Origin: a virus
Virus record (IMG/VR): IMGVR_UViG_3300024264_000181
Coordinates: 1 to 22,072 of that record
DNA length: 22,072 bases
Strand: one strand, 5' to 3'
The position numbers and the translations under genes were made by a program. The notes under the pieces were generated by a model, which was not told where the DNA came from, ran no database searches, and worked only from the letters and a program-made list of their open reading frames with translations. The stretch's first letter is position 1, and each line of letters begins with the position of its first letter. This document shows positions 2,863 to 7,476 of this stretch, piece by piece.

Positions 2863-3960
2863 ATGTTGGACGCATTAAAATCACTCTTCGAAAGCGATGC
2901 ACTTACAGATGATGTAAAAGCAGAACTTCAAGAAGCATGGGAAGCTAAAATCGGTGAAAACCGTAAAGCAGTCACTGCGGAACTTCGTGAGGAGTTTGCT
3001 CAAAAGTACGAGCATGACAAGCAAACAATGGTGGAAGCTATTGACAAGTTGCTTGAGGAACGTCTAGCTGAAGAAATTTCAGAATTTGCAGAAGATCGTC
3101 AGCAGTTAGCTGAAGCAAAAGCGAAGTATGCTATTGCTATGCGTGAAAACGCAGACCTTATGCAAGGTTTTGTTATGGAACAGCTTAAAACAGAAGTTTC
3201 CGAACTACACGAAGAACGCAAAGCAATGGCTGTACAGCATGCTAAACTTGAAGATTTTGTTGTTGAAGCATTATCTAAAGAAATTGCAGAGTTCCACGAA
3301 GATAAACAAGACTTAGCTGAAACGAAAGTACGATTAGTACGTGAAGCTAAGGAACACTTCGCTAAGGTCAAAACAGACTTTATCGAAAGAAGTGCAATAG
3401 CAGTATCAGAAACAGTTGACAAAGCTCTACGTAGCGAAATACATCAACTTAAAGAAGATATTGATGAAGCAAGACAGAACGACTTTGGTCGTAAGTTATT
3501 TGAAGCATTCGCAAGTGAATACACAAGTAGCTATCTAAACGAAAACTCAGAAACATCTAAACTTTTAAAAGTTGTCGATGCAAAGAACAAGCAGATTAGT
3601 GAAGCAAAAGTTGCTGCTAAGAAAGCTATTGAAATTGCAGAAGCACAGCAAAATAAAAATAAAGTACTTTCTGAATCAGTTCGCAGAGAGAAAATTATGA
3701 CAGATCTAGTTGCTCCTTTATCAAAGGATCAGCGCGATATCATGACAGACTTACTGGAAAGTGTACAAACTGACAGATTAAATAAATCTTTCAATAAGTA
3801 CCTACCATCAGTTATTGACGGCAACGGACCAGCGAAGCGCAAGGCAGTCTTATCAGAGGCAAAAGAAATTACAGGCAACAGAACACAAGAAAAAACTATG
3901 ACACCAAAAGCAGACGATTCTAATGTATTAGACTTACGCCGTCTTGCTGGATTAAATTAA
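2863..3960 (+). CDS. 22: Prohead core scaffold protein gp22
   Basis: A 365-residue, almost entirely helical and heptad-rich protein (Lys, Glu, Ala and Gln), consistent with the T4-type major scaffold that nucleates capsid growth inside the prohead and is then digested by gp21. Long coiled-coil stretches cover about residues 30-200 and 225-275; the segment SLFESDALTDDVKAELQE at the start and the C-terminal LDLRRLAGLN are typical of marine gp22 proteins. Several L/I-x-E sites followed by a small residue (for example LAE|A near residue 85) fit the known gp21 cleavage preference. GAGGAG at 2851-2856 lies six bases before the ATG. The gene sits between the protease and capsid genes, seven bases ahead of the latter, so the three are surely co-transcribed. 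Confidence 0.9.
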   Translation: MLDALKSLFESDALTDDVKAELQEAWEAKIGENRKAVTAELREEFAQKYEHDKQTMVEAIDKLLEERLAEEISEFAEDRQQLAEAKAKYAIAMRENADLMQGFVMEQLKTEVSELHEERKAMAVQHAKLEDFVVEALSKEIAEFHEDKQDLAETKVRLVREAKEHFAKVKTDFIERSAIAVSETVDKALRSEIHQLKEDIDEARQNDFGRKLFEAFASEYTSSYLNENSETSKLLKVVDAKNKQISEAKVAAKKAIEIAEAQQNKNKVLSESVRREKIMTDLVAPLSKDQRDIMTDLLESVQTDRLNKSFNKYLPSVIDGNGPAKRKAVLSEAKEITGNRTQEKTMTPKADDSNVLDLRRLAGLN

Positions 3961-3970
3961 GGAGATTATG

Positions 3971-5149
3971 ATGTCAGAACTATTAGAAAGTCGCTGGACA
4001 GACACAAAGACTGCTCTTCTTGAAGGCCTAGACGGTAACAAGAAGTCAGTAATGGCTGCCACACTAGAAAACACTCGCAAGTATCTTTCAGAAGCTGCAA
4101 CAGCGGGTGCAACAAGCGCAGGTAACGTAGCAACACTTAACCGTGTTATCCTACCAGTTATCAGACGTGTTATGCCAACTGTTATTGCTAACGAGTTAGT
4201 AGGTGTACAACCTATGACTGGTCCAGTTGGTCAGATTCACACACTACGTGTACGTTACGCAGATGCTTTTAACAGCACCAACGGAACAGACACAGCAGCT
4301 GGTGATGAAGCACTAAGCCCATTCAAAATTGCTGAAGGTTACTCAGGTGCCGCAGCAGACGACAGGGCAGCAGCCACAAGCGCATTAGAAGGCGCGGCAG
4401 GCAACAGAATGAGCATTCAGATCTTAAAGCAGACTGTTGAAGCTAAATCACGTAAGCTATCAGCACGTTGGACCTTTGAGGCAGCTCAAGATGCACAGTC
4501 ACAGCATGGTATTGATGTTGAAGCAGAAATTATGGCTGCTCTAGCACAAGAAATTACAGCTGAAATTGATCAAGAAGTATTAGCTTCTTTAGGTTCACTA
4601 GCAGGATCTGCTGCTGAAACTTATGACCAATCAGCAGTAAGTGGCACAGCTACTTTCGTAGGTGATGAGCATGCTGCATTAGCAGTACAAATCAACCGCG
4701 TAAGTAACTTGATTGCACAGCGTACACGTAGAGGCGCAGGTAACTGGGCAGTGGTATCACCATTTGCACTAACTATCCTACAGTCTGCTACAACTTCAGC
4801 GTTCGCAAGAACAACAGAAGGTACATTCGAAGCACCAACTAACACTAAAATGGTTGGTACATTGAACAATGCAATGAAAGTATATGTAAACACATATGCA
4901 GCTGACAGCAGTCCAGTACTTATTGGTTACAAAGGATCAAGCGAATCAGACGCAGCAGCGTTCTATTGCCCATATATCCCACTAATGAGCTCAGGCGTTG
5001 TACTAGATCCAGATACATTTGAACCAACTGTATCATTCATGACACGTTATGGTTATGTGGAACTAAACAACACAGCATCATCGCTTGGTAACGCAGCTGA
5101 TTACTTAGGTAAAGTTGACATTACTAACAGTGCAGTAAGCTTCAGCTAA
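3971..5149 (+). CDS. 23: Major capsid protein gp23
   Basis: The HK97-fold major head protein of T4-like phages. Characteristic blocks are NRVILPVIRRVMPTVIANELVGVQPMTGP (about 55-83), the RKLSARWTFEAAQD region (about 158-171), and the C-terminal PYIPLMSSGVVLDPDTFEP followed by TRYGYVE. Two ATGs stand in tandem at 3968 and 3971; I chose 3971 because AGGAG at 3960-3964 is then six bases away instead of three, giving 392 residues. The N-terminus contains LSE|AATAG at 39-46, matching the gp21 consensus (I/L-x-E before a small residue), so the mature protein probably starts at Ala42. T4 gp23 has 521 residues and cyanophage forms are somewhat shorter; this one is compact, implying a small or missing insertion domain. 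A strong terminator follows at 5169. Confidence 0.95.
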   Translation: MSELLESRWTDTKTALLEGLDGNKKSVMAATLENTRKYLSEAATAGATSAGNVATLNRVILPVIRRVMPTVIANELVGVQPMTGPVGQIHTLRVRYADAFNSTNGTDTAAGDEALSPFKIAEGYSGAAADDRAAATSALEGAAGNRMSIQILKQTVEAKSRKLSARWTFEAAQDAQSQHGIDVEAEIMAALAQEITAEIDQEVLASLGSLAGSAAETYDQSAVSGTATFVGDEHAALAVQINRVSNLIAQRTRRGAGNWAVVSPFALTILQSATTSAFARTTEGTFEAPTNTKMVGTLNNAMKVYVNTYAADSSPVLIGYKGSSESDAAAFYCPYIPLMSSGVVLDPDTFEPTVSFMTRYGYVELNNTASSLGNAADYLGKVDITNSAVSFS

Positions 5150-5168
5150 GTTTAATTTATTAAACTAG

Positions 5169-5195
5169 AATAGGCCCTTCGGGGCCTATTTTTTT
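5169..5195 (+). terminator. Strong rho-independent terminator after gp23
   Basis: A perfect 9-bp stem (AATAGGCCC / GGGCCTATT) closed by a C-UUCG-G tetraloop, followed by seven T. The UUCG loop is the most stable tetraloop known, so this should efficiently end the head-gene transcript 20 bases after the capsid stop codon. Confidence 0.95.
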
Positions 5196-5215
5196 GACTT
5201 TTTTTAAAAAAGTGG

Positions 5216-5243
5216 TTGACATTGTTTATAATGATGTTATATT
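5216..5243 (+). promoter_or_regulatory. Sigma70-type promoter for the intergenic RNA
   Basis: A consensus -35 TTGACA at 5216-5221 and a -10 TATATT at 5238-5243 are 16 bases apart. It sits just past the gp23 terminator and differs in type from the late promoters elsewhere in the window, suggesting reading by the host holoenzyme early in infection. The predicted start is near 5250. Confidence 0.6.
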
Positions 5244-5249
5244 AAGTAC

Positions 5250-5498
5250 ATAAGCTAGACGACGGTTTAGATTAGATAGTGCAAGGAATAAGCAACCGCA
5301 GCGTTGTAAACTTGGCTAGCACCTGTAGTAGGAGCGCATGAGTGTAGAGATACAAAGATGCGTATTTTGGAAGTAACTTTCCGATGTTAGGCTCTCCGAA
5401 CTTAGAAATGAGTTGCTGAGGAGTTGTTGGTAATCATTAATCCCAACCTATCACTTTATTATTAAAAGGTCTACCCACTAATGCGGTAGGCCTTTTTT
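5250..5498 (+). ncRNA. Candidate structured non-coding RNA between gp23 and fibre module
   Basis: A transcript of about 250 nt is bounded by the promoter at 5216-5243 and the terminator at 5466-5498 and holds no plausible protein gene. Local hairpins are visible: CAAC/GTTG at 5293-5306; CGCAT/ATGCG (5335-5362) enclosing a 3x3 purine internal loop and TGTA/TACA capped by a GAGA (GNRA) tetraloop; GGAA/TTCC at 5369-5382; GTT-GG/CC-AAC with one A-G mismatch at 5386-5401; and GTTGG/CCAAC near 5426-5447. The base composition is also more GC-balanced than the surrounding intergenic DNA. I do not recognise a known family: there is no tRNA-like part, no tmRNA features and no 6S-like closing helix. Function is unknown; an early antisense, sponge or protein-binding RNA are possibilities. 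Confidence 0.55.
5466..5498 (+). terminator. Rho-independent terminator of the candidate ncRNA
   Basis: A 10-bp stem AAGGTCTACC / GGTAGGCCTT (one G-T pair) around a 9-base loop, running into six T at 5493-5498 and a further T-rich tract. No gene ends within 300 bases upstream, so it must terminate an RNA starting in the interval. Confidence 0.93.
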
Positions 5499-5522
5499 CT
5501 TTTTCTTTTCTGTTAACCCTTT

Positions 5523-5532
5523 GATAAATACT
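5523..5532 (+). promoter_or_regulatory. Late promoter GATAAATACT for the 5627 transcript
   Basis: ATAAATA at 5524-5530 within the 10-mer GATAAATACT, identical to the words at 8422 and 13045. It lies 25 bases after the ncRNA terminator and 94 bases before the next gene. This matches the T4 and cyanophage late promoter (N/T-ATAAATA) and gives an 88-nt structured leader. Confidence 0.8.
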
Positions 5533-5546
5533 AATGTCAAATAGTG

Positions 5547-5579
5547 TGCCGCAAGGCGGACTTATGCTGTACCCACAGC
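5547..5579 (+). other. Structured leader of the 5627 gene
   Basis: Two adjacent hairpins occur just after the late promoter: (T)GCC-GCAA-GGC(G) at 5547-5558 with a GNRA tetraloop, and GCTGT-ACCC-ACAGC at 5566-5579. They stand well upstream of the ribosome-binding site at 5615-5619 and so may stabilise the 5' end of the message instead of hiding the start. Confidence 0.55.
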
Positions 5580-5626
5580 GTAGCTCATAGAACGGGCATT
5601 GGACTACTTTTTATAGGAGAAAAAAA

Positions 5627-6085
5627 ATGGGAAGACCACTAAACAAGAGATTTTTTGCAGATGCTACTACAGGTCCTGGTGCAGGAGATGAAATCAAAGT
5701 TAACTTTCACGACGGAGCAGGCGTTAAAGAAGGCTTCATTGTAAAGCAAAAAGGATCTAAAAGATTCGTATGTTCAGAAACAGGTACGTTAGATACATTA
5801 CATACTTGTGTGCTAACAACTGGCAAATTACCAGCAGCACTAACAGCAGGTGAAATGGCTATTTCATTCAAAATGGATGATGCAGAAACATACACAGTAA
5901 GTAAAATTTCTGGACGTAAAGTAACACTAGTTGCTCCAAGTGCTACAGGCGCAAACGCATATGACGGAAAGTCAGTGCCATGGAACTTTAGTACAAGTAC
6001 TACAGATGGTGCAGCACAAGTTGAAGAAGCTGGTGAAGATGATGTCTCCAACACTGATGATGACGATTTCACAGCAGACGCATAA
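5627..6085 (+). CDS. Probable virion structural protein (MGRPLNKRFF type)
   Basis: A 152-residue protein, beta-rich in its first 120 residues, with an N-terminal MGRPLNKRFFADA and alternating strands such as EIKVNFHDG (23-31), GFIVKQKGSKRFVCS (37-51) and TYTVSKISGRKVTLV (89-103), ending in an acidic disordered tail (about 128-152). I recognise the MGRPLNK..F start from small virion-associated proteins of marine myoviruses, but no biochemical role is known to me. It is the first gene of a late transcript downstream of the capsid gene, with AGGAG at 5615-5619 and an unusually strong leader, so abundant late expression is likely; a decoration or neck/tail component are guesses. Confidence 0.7.
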   Translation: MGRPLNKRFFADATTGPGAGDEIKVNFHDGAGVKEGFIVKQKGSKRFVCSETGTLDTLHTCVLTTGKLPAALTAGEMAISFKMDDAETYTVSKISGRKVTLVAPSATGANAYDGKSVPWNFSTSTTDGAAQVEEAGEDDVSNTDDDDFTADA

Positions 6086-6096
6086 GGACTGATGTA

Positions 6097-6459
6097 ATGG
6101 AACGACCAATTAATGTTTTTTGGAATTTTTTAAAAAATCTAAAAGATTTGATCGTTTCGGTTAAGATAGGAAACTCTAAGGCAGATCCATTTGGGTCTGT
6201 TTTAGAGCAACTTTCCGATAATACATTTAAGGTTAAAGATAACAACGGAAACATTGGAACATGTACATTAGTATCTAAAGATACAGATGAATTAAAAGAT
6301 AACGAAATGTCGTTATATGCAATTTGTTTAAAGATGTGTTCTAGTGTTTTTATAAAGAAAGTAATAAATGATATAATGATAGATTTTAAGAATAATAATT
6401 ATAAGTGGGAACTTGATCATGATTCAACACAATCTATTGTTTTGCTAAGGGATATTTAA
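6097..6459 (+). CDS. Hypothetical small protein
   Basis: A 120-residue protein of unknown function. The first 20 residues (VFWNFLKNLKDLIVSVKIG) are hydrophobic with lysines and amphipathic, not a clean membrane segment or signal peptide. Residues about 18-60 look like a small beta barrel (VSVKIGN, NTFKVKDNNGNIGTCTLV), and 75-102 a helix. The DNA is distinctly more AT-rich than its neighbours. AAGGA at 6084-6088 overlaps the previous stop codon and an ATG-TAA dead end at 6092 lies between it and the true start. Its stop abuts the next ATG directly, so it belongs to the same late operon. Confidence 0.6.
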   Translation: MERPINVFWNFLKNLKDLIVSVKIGNSKADPFGSVLEQLSDNTFKVKDNNGNIGTCTLVSKDTDELKDNEMSLYAICLKMCSSVFIKKVINDIMIDFKNNNYKWELDHDSTQSIVLLRDI

Positions 6460-7476
6460 ATGTCAACAAAGTTTTTAAAAATTGGCGGTGATTACAAAAT
6501 CTCTACAGAATCAGGAGGAAGAATAACTCTTGATACAGGCAATGAGATTGGAGATGTTGTTATTACTGGTGATTTAGTAGTACAAGGCCAATCTACAGTA
6601 GTTGAAACTACTAACATGACCATTGAAGATAATATTATAATATTAAATCAAGGTGAAACAGCAAGCGGCATCACTAGAGGCGGTCAAGCTGGTATCGAAG
6701 TAGAAAGAGGAACTGACGTTAACGGTAGATGGTTATTTGTTGATGCAATTGATTGGACTGATACTACTGTACCAGGAACTACTAGAAGCGGTGGTTGGTC
6801 TGGTAGGGATACGTCAGGAAATATATTAGGTATTGAAACTGTTAGTATTACAACAAGCGGTAATCCTTTTGCATTTTATATTGATAGTAATAATGCTAGT
6901 GCAAAAATATCTATTGACGGCGCAAACGACTACGAGTTACGAGTAACTGACGATGATGATATTCCGAATAAAAAATATGTTGATGATTCAATTACAAACT
7001 TCTTTAACGTAACAGTACCAAGCAGGATACAAGAAGGTCCAATTGGTAATTTAACAAAATTTGAAACATTTGATGATTCGCAAACTGGCACACCTAGTCG
7101 TATAGTAGCTACTATCGATGACGTTGATGTAGTTGAAGTGTTTGGCGACTATGCTGACTTGTATGGTTTAAGAATAGAGTCTTTAACTGGACGAGGCGTT
7201 GAGTTAAAAACAACAGAAACAAGCGGTAACGATTTGATACTCGGAGCAATGGGTACAGGTCAAGTTGTTATTGAAGATAATTTTAGAATACAAAGATTAG
7301 GTCACGAAGGTGATCAAACTACACCTGATAATATTCCTGTACCTGATGAAGGTGTTACAGTTTTTGCAAATACCAGTAATGCTGGAGGTTCTGGACTCTT
7401 TTTTGTTAATGAAAATTCACAAAGAGATGAACTAGTAAGTAGAAACAGAGCACTTTTGTATAGTATGATTTTTTAA
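6460..7476 (+). CDS. Fibre-like virion protein, 338 aa
   Basis: A Gly/Asn/Thr/Asp-rich, beta-structured protein. Residues 29-66 (GDVVITGDLVVQGQSTVVE, then TTNMTIEDNIIILNQGE) show the alternating short-strand pattern of trimeric phage fibre shafts, as seen in many marine phage tail-fibre proteins. Residues about 240-275 carry the LKTTETSGNDLILGAMGTGQVVIED element, a divergent form of the FITTT..ADLELRANGTG repeat of the giant proteins downstream. The C-terminus (SRNRALLYSMIF) is short and hydrophobic, like the ends of the two giant proteins. The ATG immediately follows the previous stop; AAGGGA lies about nine bases upstream. A tail-fibre or whisker-type role is likely but the exact location on the virion is not shown by sequence. 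Confidence 0.7.
   Translation: MSTKFLKIGGDYKISTESGGRITLDTGNEIGDVVITGDLVVQGQSTVVETTNMTIEDNIIILNQGETASGITRGGQAGIEVERGTDVNGRWLFVDAIDWTDTTVPGTTRSGGWSGRDTSGNILGIETVSITTSGNPFAFYIDSNNASAKISIDGANDYELRVTDDDDIPNKKYVDDSITNFFNVTVPSRIQEGPIGNLTKFETFDDSQTGTPSRIVATIDDVDVVEVFGDYADLYGLRIESLTGRGVELKTTETSGNDLILGAMGTGQVVIEDNFRIQRLGHEGDQTTPDNIPVPDEGVTVFANTSNAGGSGLFFVNENSQRDELVSRNRALLYSMIF

Follow-up and report, generated by a model that had tools for sequence, protein, structure and literature searches.

A divergent manA RNA between its own predicted promoter and terminator downstream of gp23 in a marine viral contig

What is encoded by the gene-free stretch that separates the major capsid protein gene (gp23) from the next gene in the IMG/VR virus record IMGVR_UViG_3300024264_000181? 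The DNA analyzed comprises positions 1 to 22,072 of that record (22,072 nucleotides, hereafter the window). Positions 5216–5498 hold, in this order, a sigma70 promoter close to consensus, a structured RNA and an intrinsic terminator, and this unit is located between the gp23 terminator on the left and a late promoter on the right (Table 1). No ORF of 40 aa or more is present inside it, in agreement with the preliminary description of the locus; the only ORFs found there are spurious ones of 20–27 aa, and a coding explanation was rejected, no ORF being conserved. No tRNA or tmRNA was found in the window.

The elements named in the preliminary description are present. The sigma70-type promoter (TTGACA 5216–5221, TATATT 5238–5243, 16-nt spacer, 11/12 matches) is the best promoter-like site within 4500–6500. 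Insulation on the left by the UUCG terminator of gp23, a late-promoter-like sequence behind the RNA, and a hairpin with a GAGA tetraloop and a 3x3 purine internal loop (GAG/AAG) were likewise recovered; the hairpin is conserved in close relatives. The RNA's own terminator (GGUCUACC...GGUAGGCC-U6) is strong, but the word "perfect" had to be given up because of one G-U pair. The late leader of the next gene, which belongs to the Rfam family freshwater-2, had been overlooked; it begins shortly after the late promoter and extends to the ATG of that gene. The late-promoter motif DATAAATA occurs in the window at 154, 5523, 8422 and 13045, in 4/4 cases just upstream of + strand genes, and is rarer than expected by chance (4 observed vs 10 expected). 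This suggests that these sites are late promoters and that the motif is counter-selected elsewhere.

Table 1. Features of the interval and its neighbours (positions in the window).
Feature	Positions	Strand	Evidence or remark
gp23 major capsid protein gene, left neighbour	3968..5149	+	Pfam Gp23 E 5e-99; PHROG major head protein E 3e-100
gp23 intrinsic terminator, UUCG loop, left-side insulation	5167..5192	+	
Sigma70-type promoter TTGACA-N16-TATATT, extended -10 TG	5216..5243	+	predicted start ~5250
Divergent manA RNA, structured region	5252..5457	+	RF01745 5255–5457; local model R1 5252–5454
P1 hairpin CUAGAC-GACG-GUUUAG, RNA 5' end	5255..5270	+	fold; partial covariation, 64% of cells paired
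Outer closing stem, 5' strand GAUAG (partner CUAUC 5448–5452)	5275..5279	+	
Hairpin with GAG/AAG purine internal loop and GAGA (GNRA-type) tetraloop	5334..5362	+	fold; alignments
Outer closing stem, 3' strand CUAUC	5448..5452	+	
Intrinsic terminator of the RNA, stem 5464–5475/5485–5496 and U tract	5464..5498	+	same-place terminators in relatives
Late promoter of T4 type, GATAAATA, serving the next gene; lies beyond the RNA unit	5523..5530	+	
freshwater-2 RNA (RF02980), next-gene leader, separate from the RNA unit	5545..5629	+	68.6 bits, E 8e-9, above cut-off
Next gene	5627..6085	+	without Pfam or PHROG match

The RNA had been taken for a member of no recognized family. At the gathering level, an Rfam search over the interval reports freshwater-2 only and not manA. 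In an E-value search, manA (RF01745) is matched end to end (model positions 1–192 of 192) with 42.8 bits and E 8.9e-10, under the gathering cut-off of 55.2 bits. The reverse comparison was made with R1, a covariance model built from 41 sub-family RNAs, including the window RNA and excluding canonical manA. It recovers 16/16 canonical manA loci at full length (E 3e-5 to 1.5e-12) and also matches Pelagibacter phage HTVC008M (E 0.003). Since the match holds in both directions, homology is shown, and judged by these models the window RNA is a divergent manA, although the score does not place this copy in the Rfam family in the strict sense. The family is thus not undescribed: manA was described in 2010 as a riboswitch candidate usually located in 5' UTRs (Weinberg et al., PMC2864571), and its presence in S-CREM1 was reported in 2023 (PMC9964418).

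An Rfam scan of 13 relative loci gave manA matches in 12 of them (39–64 bits, two above the cut-off). Members of the sub-family score 37–64 bits, and some exceed the cut-off (L041, 56.4; L113, 57.5; L098, 64.0; Pelagibacter phage Mosig, 64.0); the HTVC008M copy reaches 25.9 bits. The cut-off misses most of the sub-family, SAR11-host phages included.

The window RNA and manA share the order of helices and are both carried by marine T4-like phages, as indicated here by the gp23 neighbour and the viral contigs; carriers of the window sub-family include a SAR11 phage (Mosig). The canonical core GUGACUGAAUAA...UAAGGUG with a two-pair helix is replaced in the relatives of the window RNA by GUGCAAGGAA...AACUUG with a CAAG/CUUG helix. 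The outer stem is GAUAG/CUAUC in the window and GGGAG/CUCCC in 13 canonical loci. The GAUAG/CUAUC pairing was also considered as a pseudoknot, which was rejected: the other helices lie inside it, and it is a plain outer stem. While manA is filed as a 5' UTR element, the window RNA is a terminated stand-alone unit: a terminator and a separate late promoter precede the next gene. The phage-carried RNAs GOLLD and ROOL are also stand-alone, separately transcribed structured ncRNAs, but are much longer than the window RNA, and Rfam found no match to either in it. Freshwater-2 is another phage leader RNA of the same intergenic region, but its place is further downstream, where the next late transcript begins. 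The wcaG RNA (RF01761), likewise an orphan structured RNA of marine cyanophages (PMC2864571), is a different family, for which Rfam gave no match in the window.

Could the interval be a non-functional spacer between promoter and terminator that folds fortuitously? The single-sequence folding energy would allow it: the RNA region folds to -74 kcal/mol against a shuffle mean of -63.5 (z only -2.24), which is modest and would not convince by itself. The comparative evidence does. With the named structure placed on 41 sequences, 85.4% of cells are paired vs 37–49% when the partners are slid, and 40/51 pairs show changes on both sides, so that the RNA passed the check for compensatory changes proposed in the preliminary description. 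The covariation score is 0.498 vs 0.174 for shuffled alignments; RNAalifold alone finds 30 pairs, 18 of them compensatory. The outer stem varies against canonical manA. Support is weaker for P1 and two junction hairpins (helices 1, 7 and 9; 64–69% of cells paired across two sub-groups), probably in part because of the alignment. The invariance of the ATAGTGCAAGGAA...AACTTG columns is uninformative, since the relatives were picked by that motif. Strong covariation, above both shuffled and slid controls, already refutes fortuitous folding, and the significant manA match in both directions and the recurrence in many phages also speak against it; this explanation could hardly be correct.

More than 90 viral contigs, as well as phage Mosig, contain relatives of the RNA. 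Starting from relatives of gp23, blastn recovers the RNA behind gp23 in further viral contigs, with 74–84% identity, and a motif pattern scan returns at least 120 stretches. No full-length relative of the window interval was found by blastn in named phages; Mosig was reached only with L150 and L041 as queries. The canonical manA pattern, scanned over 84,980 species genomes, matched 3 contigs. A bacterial origin was rejected for them: phage-family proteins are encoded in the flanks examined, and in two of them these are clearly T4-like. A very divergent manA-like RNA precedes the ssDNA-binding protein gene of HTVC008M (L217 2080–2266); its outer stem, read by eye, is GCUAC/GUAGC, and a hypothetical protein is annotated over the RNA. 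Hypothetical ORFs are also annotated over cyanophage manA in L201, L205, L206 and L208 (PHM1_121, PSSM4_169.1, PHM2_011/012 and SSSM5_127), and these small ORFs are probably not genes.

Each of 13 complete cyanophage genomes carries exactly one manA, at one of several sites. It directly follows gp23 in five named cyanophages (P-HM1, P-RSM4, metaG-MbCM1, S-SSM5 and MED4-213), precedes gp32 in P-HM2, and is located near talC, purL or pstS in others, among them P-SSM2 (before purL) and P-RSM6 and P-TIM40 (before talC). The rule of one copy per genome is firm for the named cyanophages only, since the phages with the RNA in the gp23 slot are mostly incomplete contigs.

Copies in the gp23 slot resemble that of the window: the RNA unit is closed, and a separate late promoter serves the gene that follows. 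At gp32 (PHROG ssDNA-binding), the RNA runs into the gene, and in most cases a late promoter follows the RNA after a few bases. Five relatives (L037, L069, L078, L066 and L021) lack the promoter–RNA–terminator cassette and keep the gp23 terminator, the late promoter and the leader of the next gene, with freshwater-2 confirmed in three of the five. The cassette is thus a separable module, since both flanking elements persist where it is missing. Whether or not manA is present, relatives retain the late promoter and the leader of the next gene. P-HM1 and P-HM2, one species in the record taxonomy with gp23 88% identical, carry their single manA after gp23 and before gp32, respectively, and in each phage the other site is empty. 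P-HM1 keeps the gp32-site promoter without manA, so that promoter belongs to gp32 and not to the RNA.

The promoter accompanies the RNA. Among 73 relatives with enough flank, 62 have a sigma70 score of at least 11 (maximum 13; spacer of 16–18 allowed) upstream of the RNA, vs 1 of 395 control windows. Its distance to the RNA is nearly fixed, mostly -60 to -68 from the motif, and a similar promoter lies against the 5' end of canonical manA in the 13 cyanophages examined. The type of promoter makes expression at another time of infection than that of the late genes plausible, as the preliminary description proposed. In L200, L201, L203, L208 and L212, an upstream terminator hairpin overlaps the -35 box (GGGTGC-TTGACA-CCC, then a U tract); such an overlap may represent one element that ends the previous gene and starts manA.

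A terminator also stands behind the RNA in 29/39 gp23-slot copies and 13/17 copies at other sites, in 0/17 copies before gp32 and in 1/185 control windows (gp23 slot vs gp32, Fisher p 9e-8). Its sequence differs widely among relatives; its position is kept. With manA proposed as a riboswitch candidate of 5' UTRs (PMC2864571), and with a terminator 12–20 nt behind an aptamer-like RNA being a common riboswitch layout, the RNA could be a transcription-termination riboswitch that senses a metabolite and controls read-through at 5464–5498 into freshwater-2 and the late module. This appears unlikely. No anti-terminator partner was found: the terminator arms pair with their own RNA no better than with the RNAs of other phages (16/30), so the alternative pairing of aptamer and expression platform that marks a riboswitch is not seen in the window RNA. 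Furthermore, where the cassette is missing, the downstream gene is still preceded by a late promoter and a leader of its own, downstream genes vary between phages, and the terminator never occurs on the gp32-leader copies. Conservation of a promoter and a terminator together with the RNA is, on the contrary, the mark of a stand-alone ncRNA gene, and it is found here.

The RNA could instead be primarily a 5' leader that stabilizes or regulates early mRNAs (gp32, purL, talC and others), the gp23-slot copies being displaced ones kept by chance or linkage. It stands as a leader with no terminator ahead of gp32 (17 loci, and P-HM2), purL (P-SSM2) and talC (P-RSM6 and P-TIM40). Copies in the gp23 slot and at the other sites have nevertheless diverged while retaining the promoter, the fold and the terminator (42/56 terminated), which requires selection on the free form; this explanation is accordingly quite improbable.

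The interval is probably, then, a self-contained unit for a separately made, free-acting divergent manA RNA. The sigma70 host-type promoter is so placed that the transcript would begin immediately upstream of the P1 hairpin. By comparison with its relatives, the RNA has the manA architecture, P1 being followed by the outer stem, which encloses a two-part helix, a three-hairpin junction and two 3' hairpins. The intrinsic terminator, for which no anti-terminator is apparent, would end the RNA at a predicted length of ~245 nt. The cassette, with the gp23 terminator on one side and the next gene's late promoter on the other, could be transcribed by the host RNA polymerase before late transcription or independently of it. 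We infer that the RNA would then accumulate and work free, by binding a host or phage protein or a small molecule, and not as a switch of an attached gene. Its action as a free RNA is argued from the terminated form, kept under strong divergence, and from the shifts of site between close relatives at a copy number of one. Its activity must also suit a leader position, since the same RNA is found at the 5' end of gp32 and other mRNAs elsewhere. At gp32-type loci and in several cyanophages that lack the terminator, the RNA could act as a 5' leader, as published (PMC2864571), and a free RNA whose core is conserved could still sense a ligand. A broader proposal is more tentative and somewhat doubtful: manA as a whole might be a phage-specific trans-acting RNA and not a riboswitch class, carried as a single copy on a portable promoter–RNA cassette by marine T4-like phages of cyanobacteria and SAR11, made by the host polymerase and acting in the infected cell on a target of the host or the phage.

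Since 2010, manA has been an orphan riboswitch candidate filed as cis-regulatory, and no ligand was found in the literature examined. The terminated, mobile, single-copy form suggests a direction away from cis-control, namely a search for a protein or host target of the free RNA. The family is already known; what may tentatively be considered new is the existence of a terminated stand-alone form, that of a divergent sub-family, the occurrence of this sub-family in SAR11 phages and the switch of site between P-HM1 and P-HM2. No report of these four was found in a literature covered in part, nor was any open paper that maps transcript starts across a manA locus. A published riboswitch scan, made with a different scanner, gave no riboswitches in SAR11 phages (PMC7029224). 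The pair P-HM1/P-HM2 offers a ready natural comparison in culturable phages.

Other RNAs occur beside manA in single relatives. A glutamine riboswitch (RF01739) is located between gp23 and the manA cassette in L017 (5234–5281), L060 (5236–5282) and L148 (742–791). The sequence CTATATGGGAACAACCTG...CATCCGAAGGCACTCATAG, shared by L040, L143 and L172, stands just 3' of manA in the place of the terminator; Rfam and ARAGORN gave no match for it in L040 and L143. In two gp23-slot copies, tRNA-Gly(TCC) directly follows the RNA with no terminator between them (L029 5499–5573, L102 4366–4439). At 3552–3943, the viral contig L154 carries a permuted alphaproteobacterial tmRNA and a tRNA-Leu near a manA RNA.
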